A stretch of DNA of 34,280 nt from positions 1-34,280 of the forward strand of contig JAITIB010000040.1 of assembly GCA_031279675.1 (NCBI GenBank), given 5' to 3'. The translations under genes and the position numbers were made by a program. Below the pieces are notes generated by a model that did no database searches, was not told the DNA's origin, and saw only the letters and a list, made by a program, of their open reading frames with translations. Below, one piece after another: positions 16,296 to 26,896 of the stretch (position 1 is the first letter of the stretch; each line of letters starts with the position of its first letter). This stretch comes from Puniceicoccales bacterium. GTDB taxonomy: Bacteria; Verrucomicrobiota; Verrucomicrobiia; Opitutales; UBA953.

Positions 16296-17348
16296 TTAAG
16301 CTTTGCGCCGCCGTCTCAACACCGCCAAGGCCACCGCCCCGAGGCCGCCGATCAAGGCATAGGTCGAGGGCTCCGGGATGGCGCGCGCGACGAGGTAGGT
16401 TTGCCAGATGCCGATGCCACCCGTGTCGTAGGCGATGTCAAACACCTGCCCGGTATCCGCCACTACTGGATCCGACCCCCACAGTCCGTCAACAGGAAGT
16501 CCTTCAAGAATCAAGATCTGGTCTCCCACCGCAAATTCGCCCGTGGCCTCAATCACCAACACAGCCTCCCCGGTAATGTTAACATTGCCAGAGTTGCTGA
16601 GTATGATTTTCCCATTGGTGCCCGCCGGGCTCACGGTGATTGCGAACTCCGCATCCCCAGTGATATCAAAGCGAGTAGCGACCGATATCTGGCTCTCATG
16701 GTCAATGAGAAGTTGTGCCCCGGCTCTCATCTCCAGATTATTGACACCCATGAAACCGCCTTCGGTCAGCTCAACACGCCCGTTAACAGCAACGTGAAGC
16801 GTCCCGGCATGAACAGATGTGGCGACGACGTCGCTTACAATCAACTCGCCAGAACCATTGGAAGAACCCCCGACGGTAATTGCATTGGATACATACACCT
16901 TGGAAGCAGAGCCTGATATCTCCACATAACCTATTCCGGTATAAGTGCCAATCTCAAGCGAGATGGTCTCAACCTTGCCGTCGAGAACATTAAAGTGCCC
17001 AGTGCTAAAGGTTCCGACCTCGATACCTCCGCTCGCAATGAACTCCCCGCCTTCGTAAACATTGAGCGTGCCCGGCCCGTCCCAGCCAATCCGGCCCGTG
17101 CGCGCAAGCTCAAGCACGCCACCATTCCAAATATTGACGAGCGCCTCACCACCAATGAGCGGCCCGATATAAGCATCATCGATGATTCCACCCATGAGGG
17201 GATGGAAAAAAGGAGCATAAATGTCTGTCACTCCGGCTGCTGGGGACCAGTCATCGACCGCGTTGGCGGCGGGCGGGCTCGCAAGGGTGAAAGTTGCCGC
17301 GGCGGCGGCAAGGGTGAGTGTTTTGAGGGTTATGGATGTTGTTTTCAT
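16296..17348 (-). CDS. PEP-CTERM sorted exported protein with beta-helix-like glycine-rich repeats
   Basis: Signal peptide MKTTSITLKTLTLAAAAATFTLASPPAANA; C-terminus AIPEPSTYALIGGLGAVALAVLRRRRKA; repeats of GxLxVxxGGxxxxSGG / GTLHVAVNGRVELTEGG type. Confidence 0.88.
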   Translation of the reverse strand: MKTTSITLKTLTLAAAAATFTLASPPAANAVDDWSPAAGVTDIYAPFFHPLMGGIIDDAYIGPLIGGEALVNIWNGGVLELARTGRIGWDGPGTLNVYEGGEFIASGGIEVGTFSTGHFNVLDGKVETISLEIGTYTGIGYVEISGSASKVYVSNAITVGGSSNGSGELIVSDVVATSVHAGTLHVAVNGRVELTEGGFMGVNNLEMRAGAQLLIDHESQISVATRFDITGDAEFAITVSPAGTNGKIILSNSGNVNITGEAVLVIEATGEFAVGDQILILEGLPVDGLWGSDPVVADTGQVFDIAYDTGGIGIWQTYLVARAIPEPSTYALIGGLGAVALAVLRRRRKA

Positions 17349-22405: not shown

Positions 22406-23227
22406 TCATTTCCAGACGAGATGCCAGGTCGTCCCGGTCGTCTCGTCCGCGACACGAAATTCGACCCCGTTGCGTATTTCGCGACGAAGCGTTTCCATTG
22501 TGTAAAGGGTGGCCTTCGGCTCCTCGGCCTTGCGCGTCGCGTTAATGGCGCGAAGCAGGCGATCAAGCATCGCCTGTGTTTCGACGCGTCCCGAACGGCC
22601 CGTTTGCGAGACGATGAAATCTTTCTCCGGATACTTGTTCCCCGCCGCGGCAGCAGCCTGTTGTTTTGCGCGGAGCGCCGAGGGTTTCCCAATCCGGGCA
22701 AGCTTGGCCACGTCGCCACCTTTCACCAAGACGGGCTCGCCGCCGACAATGCGCAAAGTGGCGTCCACACGGCGAATCTGGAGCTTGCTGCCAAAGGCGG
22801 TGCCGCGCGCCGCCTTGACGGGCTCAATCGCCCGCACGGTTTTTTCCAATTCCGCCGGCGGGACCAGGAGCAGGATTTCCCCCCCTGCGGCACCATTCGC
22901 ATCCACCGTGAAAATCGTGATGGCCGCATAGGGCGCGGTGGCGTCAAACTGCCCGCTCACATCGAGCGCGCCGACGAACGTGGCGACGGGTTTCCCGTCC
23001 AGGTTTTTGGCATTGGCGCGCAATGCCGTGGCAACACCAGGCTTTGCAGGAGGCGACGTCACCGCCGTCGATTTGGCCTTCGCATCCGGTTTTGCGGAAA
23101 CGGAAAACGCAGCCGGCACCCCCGCGAAGAGAAAAAATGCCAGCGCGACGGCGACTGGCAAACGCGGGACGGAAACATTGGGGGAAAGGTGGCGTTGGCT
23201 CATTGTTTGGGAAACGGCTTTCATCAC
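22406..23227 (-). CDS. Hypothetical exported protein
   Basis: Signal-like PRLPVAVALAFFLFAGVPAAFSVSA; no family recognised. The start could be internal (MSQRHL...). Confidence 0.6.
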   Translation of the reverse strand: MMKAVSQTMSQRHLSPNVSVPRLPVAVALAFFLFAGVPAAFSVSAKPDAKAKSTAVTSPPAKPGVATALRANAKNLDGKPVATFVGALDVSGQFDATAPYAAITIFTVDANGAAGGEILLLVPPAELEKTVRAIEPVKAARGTAFGSKLQIRRVDATLRIVGGEPVLVKGGDVAKLARIGKPSALRAKQQAAAAAGNKYPEKDFIVSQTGRSGRVETQAMLDRLLRAINATRKAEEPKATLYTMETLRREIRNGVEFRVADETTGTTWHLVWK

Positions 23228-23249: not shown

Positions 23250-23325
23250 TGGAGCCACTTGTCAGATTCGAACTGACGACCCTTTCATTACGAATGAAAT
23301 GCTCTACCAGCTGAGCTAAAGTGGC
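23250..23325 (-). tRNA. tRNA-Thr (anticodon CGT), CCA encoded
   Basis: GCCACTT TA GCTCAGCTGGTAGAGC A TTTCA TTCGTAA TGAAA GGGTC GTCAG TTCGAAT CTGAC AAGTGGC T CCA; full cloverleaf pairing by eye. Confidence 0.96.
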
Positions 23326-23467: not shown

Positions 23468-24361
23468 ATGCTCCCGACACTCAATGCCAGTTTTCTCGCC
23501 ACCACCGCCCATGCCTCCCCCGCGCCCATCGAGGGCAGCCAGGGAGTGCTCCTCGCATGTGCGGGCGCGCTGCTGCTGGCCATGTTCGCCGGGGCGCGGC
23601 ACGGATACTGGCGCGGCCCCGTGCGCCAAATCGCGCCCACCGTGGCGCTCGCGCTCGCAATCCTCGGCGCATGGATTGGCGGCGCGGCATTCGGACACTC
23701 CGTGTTGCACGGCACACTCGTCCCATGGCTGTTGCGCGGAATATGCGGCATGTTTCTCCTCGGCAGCATTCTCTGGCTCGCAGCCTTCGCCTTCCTCTGG
23801 CGGCTCGGGCGCAACCGTTTCCCCAACCCCACCGGGGAGACAGAGAACCCGGTGCTCGGAGCCATCGTCGGCTGCTGGACGGCAATCCTCTGGAGCACAG
23901 TGGTTTTTTTCCTTCTCGCCGCCACCGGAGCCATCGCGCAATTCTGGATCGACAACACGCGTCCCGCCGCCGGCAGCACCACGGCCCGCATCCTCACGCA
24001 ACTCGTCGTCGTCAAAAACTCCCTCGCCCGCGTCAACGGCGCCGCCTGGCTCAAAACCTGGAACCCGCTCCCCGCGCACCTCCAGCGCACGATAGAAAAA
24101 GGGCTCCGCGTCCTCAACACCCCGGGCGCCCTGCAACGCCTGCAACGCCTGCAACCCATCCGCGCCATCGCCACCGACCCCGCATTCTACCCCCTCACCC
24201 AAAACCCCGAAATCCGCCAGTGCATAGCCGCGCACGACATCCACAAGCTCCTCGCCCACCCCGCCGTGCTCCAACTCCTCGCCGACGACAACTTCCAACG
24301 CAAACTCGCCCAGACCAACCTCGGGCAACTCTTCGACCAAGCCCTCGAGCCCGCTCTCTAA
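23468..24361 (+). CDS. Membrane protein, CvpA-like
   Basis: GARHGYWRGPVRQIAPTVALALAILGAWIGGAAFG resembles the CvpA N-terminal pattern; four hydrophobic segments then a helical tail. Confidence 0.55.
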   Translation: MLPTLNASFLATTAHASPAPIEGSQGVLLACAGALLLAMFAGARHGYWRGPVRQIAPTVALALAILGAWIGGAAFGHSVLHGTLVPWLLRGICGMFLLGSILWLAAFAFLWRLGRNRFPNPTGETENPVLGAIVGCWTAILWSTVVFFLLAATGAIAQFWIDNTRPAAGSTTARILTQLVVVKNSLARVNGAAWLKTWNPLPAHLQRTIEKGLRVLNTPGALQRLQRLQPIRAIATDPAFYPLTQNPEIRQCIAAHDIHKLLAHPAVLQLLADDNFQRKLAQTNLGQLFDQALEPAL

Positions 24362-24426: not shown

Positions 24427-25377
24427 ATGCAACCAACACAAATGAAAGCACAACGCCACCTCCCCGCAGCAACAACCCTCCTCCTCGCCCTCGCCGCCCC
24501 GCTCGCCACCGCGCAAAGCACCCCGGCGCCAGCCCCCGCCACGACACCTGAAAGCGCCGCAGCCGCAAAACAAGCCCCCCTGCCCAACGCCGAGGAAGTC
24601 ATCGAGCAAAACGGCAAAAAATTCATCCTCGTCTCCACCATCAAAACCCCGGCAACCAACCGCGAATTCCAAAACAACGTCGCCATCATCCGCCAGCAAC
24701 GCAACATCGCCATCGAGCTCAAACGACGTATCGACCAGGCCCTCACAACCCCGGAAAAAGAAGCCCTCCAGCAAAAACTCGACGAAGCCGTCAAAAAACT
24801 TGATGACGACAACAAGCTCATGGTCAAAACCTACGGCTTCTCACTCATGCGCAACTACATGCTGCAAATCGTCAAGACCCACCTCTACCTCCCGCTCGAC
24901 GACGAACAATACGGAAAACTCCCCGCGACCGAGCGCACCCCCGAGCGCATCACCACGCAAACAGTCAAGGACAAGGACGGCAAAGAACAAACCATCCGCC
25001 TGCTCCACATCGCCACAATCACAGGCGTCGCCGACAACGACATCTTCCGCCAAAACGTCCAACTCGTCCAAAACCAGCGCCAGCGCATCCTCCAACTCAC
25101 CGAGGCCATCAAACAGTTCAAAAACGAGAAAGACAAAAAACGCTTCGAGGAAGAACTCGCAAAATCCACCGAGACGCTCCAAAAAAACAACGAGGCCATG
25201 ATCAAACAATACGGCTTCAGCCTCGCGAACAACTACACGCTCGAAATTGAAACATGCCACCTCTACATGGCCGTCTCCGAGGAAGAACTCAAGGCCGCCC
25301 AGGCGCAAAAAAACAACCCCCCGGCCAGCCCGGCAACCGCGGCACCCAACACCGTTGACGGACTCCAACTCCGTTGA
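24427..25377 (+). CDS. Exported protein with two copies of a 'YGFSL' repeat (paralog A)
   Basis: Signal MKAQRHLPAATTLLLALAAPLATAQS; repeats NREFQNNVAIIRQQRN...MVKTYGFSLMRNYMLQIVKTHLYLPL and DNDIFRQNVQLVQNQRQ...MIKQYGFSLANNYTLEIETCHLYMAV. Confidence 0.85.
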   Translation: MQPTQMKAQRHLPAATTLLLALAAPLATAQSTPAPAPATTPESAAAAKQAPLPNAEEVIEQNGKKFILVSTIKTPATNREFQNNVAIIRQQRNIAIELKRRIDQALTTPEKEALQQKLDEAVKKLDDDNKLMVKTYGFSLMRNYMLQIVKTHLYLPLDDEQYGKLPATERTPERITTQTVKDKDGKEQTIRLLHIATITGVADNDIFRQNVQLVQNQRQRILQLTEAIKQFKNEKDKKRFEEELAKSTETLQKNNEAMIKQYGFSLANNYTLEIETCHLYMAVSEEELKAAQAQKNNPPASPATAAPNTVDGLQLR

Positions 25378-25450
25378 CGCCCCCGACCCCCTGACCGGCA
25401 GCCCGCGCACCACCATCACCATCCAAAAACATCCAACCGCAAACACCCGT

Positions 25451-26194
25451 ATGACAACCGAAACAACACCCGGCCCCGCGACGAACAAACCCGAGATCAT
25501 CGAGCAGAACGGACAAAAACTCGTCCTCGTCGCCACCATTAAAACCGTCGCCGCCAATCGCGAGTTCCAAAACAACGTCAACGTTGTCCAAAAACAGCGC
25601 AACTTCGCCGTGGAACTCAAGCAGCGGCTCGACCAGGCCTTCACCTCAGCCGAAAAGGCGGCCATCCAGAAAAAACTCGACGAAACCCTCAAGAGTCTCG
25701 ACAGCAACAACGCACTGATGGTGAAAACCTACGGTTTCTCGCTCATGCGCAAATACGTCCTCTCCTTTGCAAAAACCCGCCTCTACACACCCCTCACAGA
25801 CGAGGAATACGAAAAGACATCCCCCGAGGAAAAGGCAAAGCCGGACGCCATCAAGACCATCGACGGAAAAGTCCACGCCTATATCGCATCCATAGAAGGC
25901 ATCGCGGAAAACGACATCTTCCGCCAGAACGTCCAGCTCGTCCAAACGCAACGCAACCGCCTCGTCCAGCTTAAGCAAGCCCTTGACAAGTCAACCGGCG
26001 AGGCGGACCGCCAAAAACTCCAGGAAGAGTTCACCAAGTCCGAGGAGGTCCTCAAAAAGAACAACGAGGAAATGATTAAACGCTACGGCTTCAGCCTCAT
26101 GAGAAACTACCTTTTGGAAGTCGAGGAATCCAGCCTCTACACAAGCTTGACAGAGGAAGAAATCCAAAAGACCGCCCCCGCTCCCCAAGCTTAA
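25451..26194 (+). CDS. Protein with two copies of the same 'YGFSL' repeat, no signal peptide (paralog B)
   Basis: MTTETTPGPATNKPEIIEQNGQKLVLVATIKT...MVKTYGFSLMRKYVLSFAKTRLYTPL and ENDIFRQNVQLVQTQRNR...MIKRYGFSLMRNYLLEVEESSLYTSL. Confidence 0.85.
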   Translation: MTTETTPGPATNKPEIIEQNGQKLVLVATIKTVAANREFQNNVNVVQKQRNFAVELKQRLDQAFTSAEKAAIQKKLDETLKSLDSNNALMVKTYGFSLMRKYVLSFAKTRLYTPLTDEEYEKTSPEEKAKPDAIKTIDGKVHAYIASIEGIAENDIFRQNVQLVQTQRNRLVQLKQALDKSTGEADRQKLQEEFTKSEEVLKKNNEEMIKRYGFSLMRNYLLEVEESSLYTSLTEEEIQKTAPAPQA

Positions 26195-26494: not shown

Positions 26495-26896
26495 ATGAGC
26501 ACAGAGCTACCATATACCTCGTATGCAGAATACGAAAACACGCTGATCGAACAGGCACGCAAGGAAGCCTTGGAAAAGTGGAAAGAAGTCGAACTTCGCC
26601 AACGGCTGGCCACAGCTTACCAAAGCTTTGGTTTCAGTTCCAACGCCGAGTTCATCAAAGCCTTGGGCGGAGTTGTCCGCGCCGGTGGCAAGGGCAAAGG
26701 CAAGGGCAAAGGCAAGCCGCCTGCCGGGGCGCCCAAGAAAAAGGGTCCCAAGAAGGGCAAGCGCGTCCGTCTCACACCGGAAATCATTGCCAAGATCCGT
26801 GAGCTGAGCGCCCTCGGCAAGGGAGTCTCCGAAATCACCCGGACACTGGGCATTTCGGCGCCATCCGTTTACAAGGTCACCAAGAACAAGAGCTAA
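26495..26896 (+). CDS. Small basic protein with C-terminal resolvase-like helix-turn-helix
   Basis: Helical N-terminus, GKGKGKGKGKPPAGAPKKKGPKKGKR linker, then RLTPEIIAKIRELSALGKGVSEITRTLGISAPSVYKVTKNKS. Confidence 0.75.
   Translation: MSTELPYTSYAEYENTLIEQARKEALEKWKEVELRQRLATAYQSFGFSSNAEFIKALGGVVRAGGKGKGKGKGKPPAGAPKKKGPKKGKRVRLTPEIIAKIRELSALGKGVSEITRTLGISAPSVYKVTKNKS

Follow-up and report, generated by a model that had tools for sequence, protein, structure and literature searches.

The window analysed here, a stretch of 34,280 nt from a Puniceicoccales bacterium, carries two adjacent genes, A and B, whose products are 55% identical across 241 residues (Table 1). Sequence comparison makes both look like real genes on which purifying selection acts. 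Against congeners, pN/pS is 0.43-0.58 in A, which evolves fast, and 0.20-0.28 in B, which evolves more slowly and is under tighter constraint. In the window, B's reading frame continues without a stop back into the end of A, and a ribosomal frameshift fusing A to B was considered and rejected, because in most congeners this frame reaches only a short way upstream of B's start. Elsewhere the two genes are separated by a 5 nt gap (L045) or overlap by 4 nt (L022). The small protein encoded downstream of B has a weak match to dnstrm_HI1420 that lies under the cut-off.

Table 1. Features of the A/B locus and its surroundings, in coordinates of the window.
Feature	Position	Strand	Remarks
Secreted protein with C-terminal PEP-CTERM-like sorting signal PEPSTYALIGGLGAVALAVLRRRRKA	16296-17348	-	recognised by eye
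Orphan protein, likely signal peptide	22406-23227	-	no Pfam match
tRNA-Thr (CGT)	23250-23325	-	upstream of CvpA-like gene
CvpA-like (Colicin_V, PF02674) membrane protein gene	23468..24361	+	Pfam 25.9 bits, E 1.1e-5, under curated cut-off 29.3; directly upstream of A
Gene A, predicted exported two-unit protein	24427..25377	+	316 aa from first ATG; alternative ATG at 24442
Predicted Sec signal peptide of A, MQPTQMKAQRHLPAATTLLLALAAPLATA	24427..24513	+	hydropathy, maximum 12-residue value 2.14
Unit A-R1	24616..24918	+	unit profile
Unit A-R2	24997..25296	+	unit profile
Gene B, two-unit protein, no signal peptide predicted	25451..26194	+	247 aa
Unit B-R1	25514..25819	+	unit profile; predicted beta, long helical hairpin, YGFSL turn, beta
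Unit B-R2	25871..26173	+	unit profile; fold as predicted for B-R1
Small protein downstream of B	26495-26896	+	Gly/Lys-rich middle, helix-turn-helix-like C-terminal part

A preliminary description of this DNA had claimed, from alignment by eye, that each gene encodes two copies of one pattern with near-invariant cores. Twenty-eight single-unit proteins from other families, and nothing from the window, went into a profile that recovers all four copies at 107.1 (A-R1), 98.7 (A-R2), 112.1 (B-R1) and 93.5 bits (B-R2); when A and B are shuffled, the best of 4000 sequences reaches 12.2 bits. Identity between the proteins is 64% for the first units and 53% for the second, against 32% between the two units of A and 42% between those of B; A's first unit is indeed nearer to B's first unit than to its own neighbour, as had been said. 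Because an independent profile finds the four copies, and because first units resemble first units and second units resemble second units more than the two do within a protein, the alignment, the motif and the coordinates first proposed were right. The cores seen by eye match the invariant columns of the ~102-residue unit in a nine-sequence seed set (F18, N21, Q28, R29, L62, N66, M69, Y73, G74, L77, Y81 and E97), and the pattern N..F..N/QR/N..M...YG.SL...Y of this ~100-residue unit is present in all four units of the window. It could be argued that charged coiled-coil sequences only look alike by chance or composition, since the Glu/Lys/Gln content is high and searches of Pfam and the PDB return weak unrelated coiled-coil matches. 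The comparison of profile scores with shuffles refutes this; moreover, the alignment is nearly gap-free across ~100 residues, with Y-G and N invariant, and a repeated fold is predicted at high confidence by AlphaFold2, so that we attach a negligible probability to chance resemblance.

A and B are members of a protein-domain family of the Verrucomicrobiota that is undescribed relative to Pfam, NCBIfam and PHROGs. The Pfam scan gave no match above chance for A or B and, for 33 single-unit relatives, no recurring or plausible match (the commonest was RMI1_C, in eight members, best E 0.016); searches of NCBIfam and PHROGs gave nothing near cut-off. The new domain proposed at the outset is thus borne out, in that none of the three collections holds a family covering the unit. 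Sequence searches of the PDB with two alignments returned only helix-helix chance matches, which were rejected; the best was bacteriohemerythrin (E 0.006, over one hairpin), and the unit has no visible conserved iron-ligand histidines.

The AlphaFold2 model of B, obtained from a 55-sequence alignment, has a mean pLDDT of 93.6 and a pTM of 0.82. It predicts a strand (22-30), two helices (33-62 and 66-94) and a strand (102-114) in the first unit, and the same succession in the second (strand 140-149, helices 151-180 and 184-212, strand 221-232). The helices, of ~30 residues each, are predicted to run antiparallel, and YGFSL occupies the turn from the second helix into the last strand. The unit would therefore be a strand, a two-helix hairpin, the YGFSL turn and a strand, equivalent in both halves of B, in agreement with the suggestion of a unit repeated twice. 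A single-unit relative is predicted to have the same order of elements plus a C-terminal helix (pLDDT 83). Conservation is highest in the YGFSL loop (2.52 bits), intermediate in the strands (1.66-1.95) and the helix bases (1.65), and lowest at the hairpin tip (1.08-1.13). Foldseek comparisons of the predicted models with the PDB (350,542 chains) and with viral folds gave no match at E <= 0.001.

With B alone as query, the family is present in 79/141 close genomes, and with the unit profile in 123/373 genomes of the order and 25/388 genomes sampled over the phylum; one scan of genome contigs with B as the sole query yielded no more than two close relatives, loci of the same genus in Puniceicoccales bacterium MAGs. 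No relative was found in IMG/VR, either by B or by a single-unit alignment, and a viral origin was rejected on this ground together with the lack of a PHROGs match and of a viral fold at the threshold given above. The survey of copy number and neighbours that had been envisaged found one, two or four units per protein, and showed that in 20 genomes the gene upstream is CvpA-like. Three families of the same order (f2, f5 and f14) and one outside it (f52) have proteins with a single unit, preceded by a signal peptide or a lipoprotein signal, with two such genes in tandem in f5. Family f17, likewise of this order, has one exported two-unit gene, f95 has its own two-unit gene, and a lone four-unit protein, exported and with its first two units degenerate, is found in f11 (L095:3985-5226, minus strand, genome G270). 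The f14 genomes G292, G230 and G353 encode relatives without export signal (L085, L088/L109, L110, L096), which start MTK.....G.P.RI..D.Q.FQLVA.IEG; in these one unit is clear, and a second, weakly recognisable, ends in QVRKGALYAT. G230 has two copies.

The history of these units was read from a tree of 121 of them, built on few columns, midpoint-rooted and with many open forks. In this tree the first units of f1, the family of the window, and of f17 group together, and the second units do likewise, with 6 label changes against 52 in shuffles, which argues that the internal duplication preceded the gene duplication. The order proposed in the preliminary description is supported by this grouping and amended by it, as the internal duplication appears to be old and common to f1 and f17. 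The two f95 units are each other's closest relatives (support 100/91), pointing to an independent internal duplication there, and doubling inside the gene thus seems to have happened at least twice. The simplest reading of the sequences would start from one secreted unit, which doubled before the f1/f17 split (and separately in f95), followed by tandem gene duplication within f1. Single units are placed first because of their spread and by parsimony, besides the midpoint root.

Signal peptides were called by hydropathy, as the maximum over 12 residues. By this measure the first gene has a signal peptide and the second has none in 22/22 f1 pairs, from genera g1, g2, g3 and g5 (2.1-2.8 for gene 1 and at most 1.0 for gene 2). 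Six genomes carry a single gene, in which a predicted signal peptide precedes a B-like body (L011, at ~1480, in G029; L012 in G023; L013 in G020; L014 in G014; L015 in G010; L010 in G011); G029 has an additional partial second locus. Those of the single-gene proteins that were compared are nearer B than A: L119 is 47.7% identical to the window's B and 39.5% to its A, and L118 is 57% identical to the B of L121. This form fits a deletion of A's body. In 6/6 of these genomes an internal Met is retained at the position of B's start, preceded by residues that resemble B's leader (contexts such as NNNTMSNTTSK and KSMTTASQP), and the retained Met may be a second start, giving a putative cytosolic short form. 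A check for Shine-Dalgarno sequences is uninformative on these internal starts, because they, A and B are alike in having no clear motif.

Twenty genomes, from g1, g2, g4 and g5, have the CvpA-like gene immediately ahead of the locus and in the same orientation, and it is probably an operon partner of A and B. It was not found beside the locus in g3 or in the other families examined, and the link is therefore not needed for the core role of the unit. The literature searched yielded no known CvpA partner of this sort, and nothing useful on the A/B family or on CvpA in Verrucomicrobia.

The reading we favour, tentatively and at somewhat less than even confidence, is that periplasmic A and cytosolic B work around the CvpA-like protein, one on each face of the inner membrane, as scaffolds or holdases in envelope maintenance. 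The beta bases would give rigidity to the protein or its oligomers, and the hairpin arms would hold other proteins. In the single-gene species the signal peptide would have come to stand on a B-like body, and the cytosolic form would perhaps still be made from the internal ATG. A more specific version is doubtful, although we consider it worth stating: a two-compartment protein, in which one hairpin fold, both exported and cytosolic, surrounds a CvpA-like channel or transporter from the two sides of the inner membrane, supplied in most species by a gene pair or, where one copy was lost, by one gene with two starts (a long exported and a short cytosolic product).

The most serious rivals to this proposal are a Skp-like holdase and a B that serves A before export. 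Under the latter, A would be an exported effector, and B would stay in the cytosol as a chaperone, an assembly template or a sink, keeping A in shape until export through the like-with-like contacts of paralogues. The strict pairing of an exported with a non-exported copy in 22 pairs, the tight spacing of the genes and the slower evolution of B are all consistent with this. However, the exported single-unit relatives and the two-unit relatives of f17 have no cytosolic copy that we could find beside them, and the f14 relatives in G230, G292 and G353 seem to hold only the non-exported form; we judge it unlikely, while still a real contender. The structural repeats could also belong at the surface or outside the cell, in an adhesin or coat-like protein, with B a secondary and perhaps decaying copy. 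Such a role could be suggested by the signal peptides on most members, the unit copy numbers of 1, 2 and 4, and the fast evolution of A, but B is the more conserved copy and is strongly constrained, the family sequences that were read show no sorting signal, beta-barrel or PEP-CTERM, and variability sits at the tips of the hairpins and not at their bases. We consider this quite improbable.

The unit could otherwise be a far-diverged Skp/OmpH, the short-armed trimeric periplasmic chaperone, doubled in tandem. In Skp the elements follow the order beta, helix, helix, beta, beta, helix, which agrees with that of the single-unit model, and the exported, helix-rich design is similar. With the same model, 1u2m_C and 1sg2_C rank 1st and 5th among 350,542 PDB chains (Foldseek probabilities 0.95 and 0.90), but with E-values of 1.2-1.5 and with other helical hairpins scoring almost equally, and the two-unit model has no Skp among the top 50 matches listed. 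Set against OmpH sequences from within the order, 13 at first and 30 later, the unit reached profile-profile probabilities of 0.9-4.2%, against 1.2% for a reversed control, a weak signal so close to the control that homology by profile was rejected. Furthermore, the units have no PF03938 match, B is predicted not to be exported, and a separate true OmpH exists in 37/38 genomes searched, that of the window included; in G000 the only PF03938 matches were a true OmpH on C44 (74.7 bits) and, below the threshold, a site on C105, with none on C94. We hold descent from Skp/OmpH to be unlikely.

Whatever their role, A and B add a domain that several Verrucomicrobiota families share and for which no curated family model exists. 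Its growth can be followed clearly, from single units through proteins with two and four of them to gene pairs. The strict pairing of exported and non-exported copies, reduced in the single-gene species to one B-like body fronted by a signal peptide, makes an unusual case of one fold in two compartments, next to a CvpA-like protein. Proteins built on such hairpins are common in general. For annotation, the profile would offer a model for hundreds of genes presently labelled hypothetical.

Among the systems closest to the locus are secreted two-unit proteins of other Verrucomicrobiota families, f57, f63 and f87 (L091-L094, L111, L112), also undescribed in Pfam as judged through the window-derived profile. 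The likeness extends over both units, with a profile-profile probability of 97-98% and, for one comparison, E-values of 4e-11 to 1e-12. They differ in having FG/YG-V-P-like turns in place of YGFSL, followed by RxYxY...TLYLK, and in that a separate first strand between the units is not visible; on sequence grounds they are probably a sister family. The relation to CvpA, the Colicin_V production protein (PF02674), is of another kind, as the likeness is that of the upstream neighbour and not of A or B. In Skp/OmpH (PF03938; 1sg2, 1u2m), which is small and exported, an N-terminal strand leads into a helical hairpin that C-terminal strands follow, a design resembled by the predicted single unit; by Foldseek rank Skp is the nearest solved structure for that unit, in a match that is not significant (E 1.2). 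Unlike Skp, the unit has a hairpin of ~30 residues per arm and is repeated one, two or four times, and export is predicted by hydropathy for A and not for B. A and B may act like Skp, which they resemble in the layout of the predicted models, and we do not class them as Skp.
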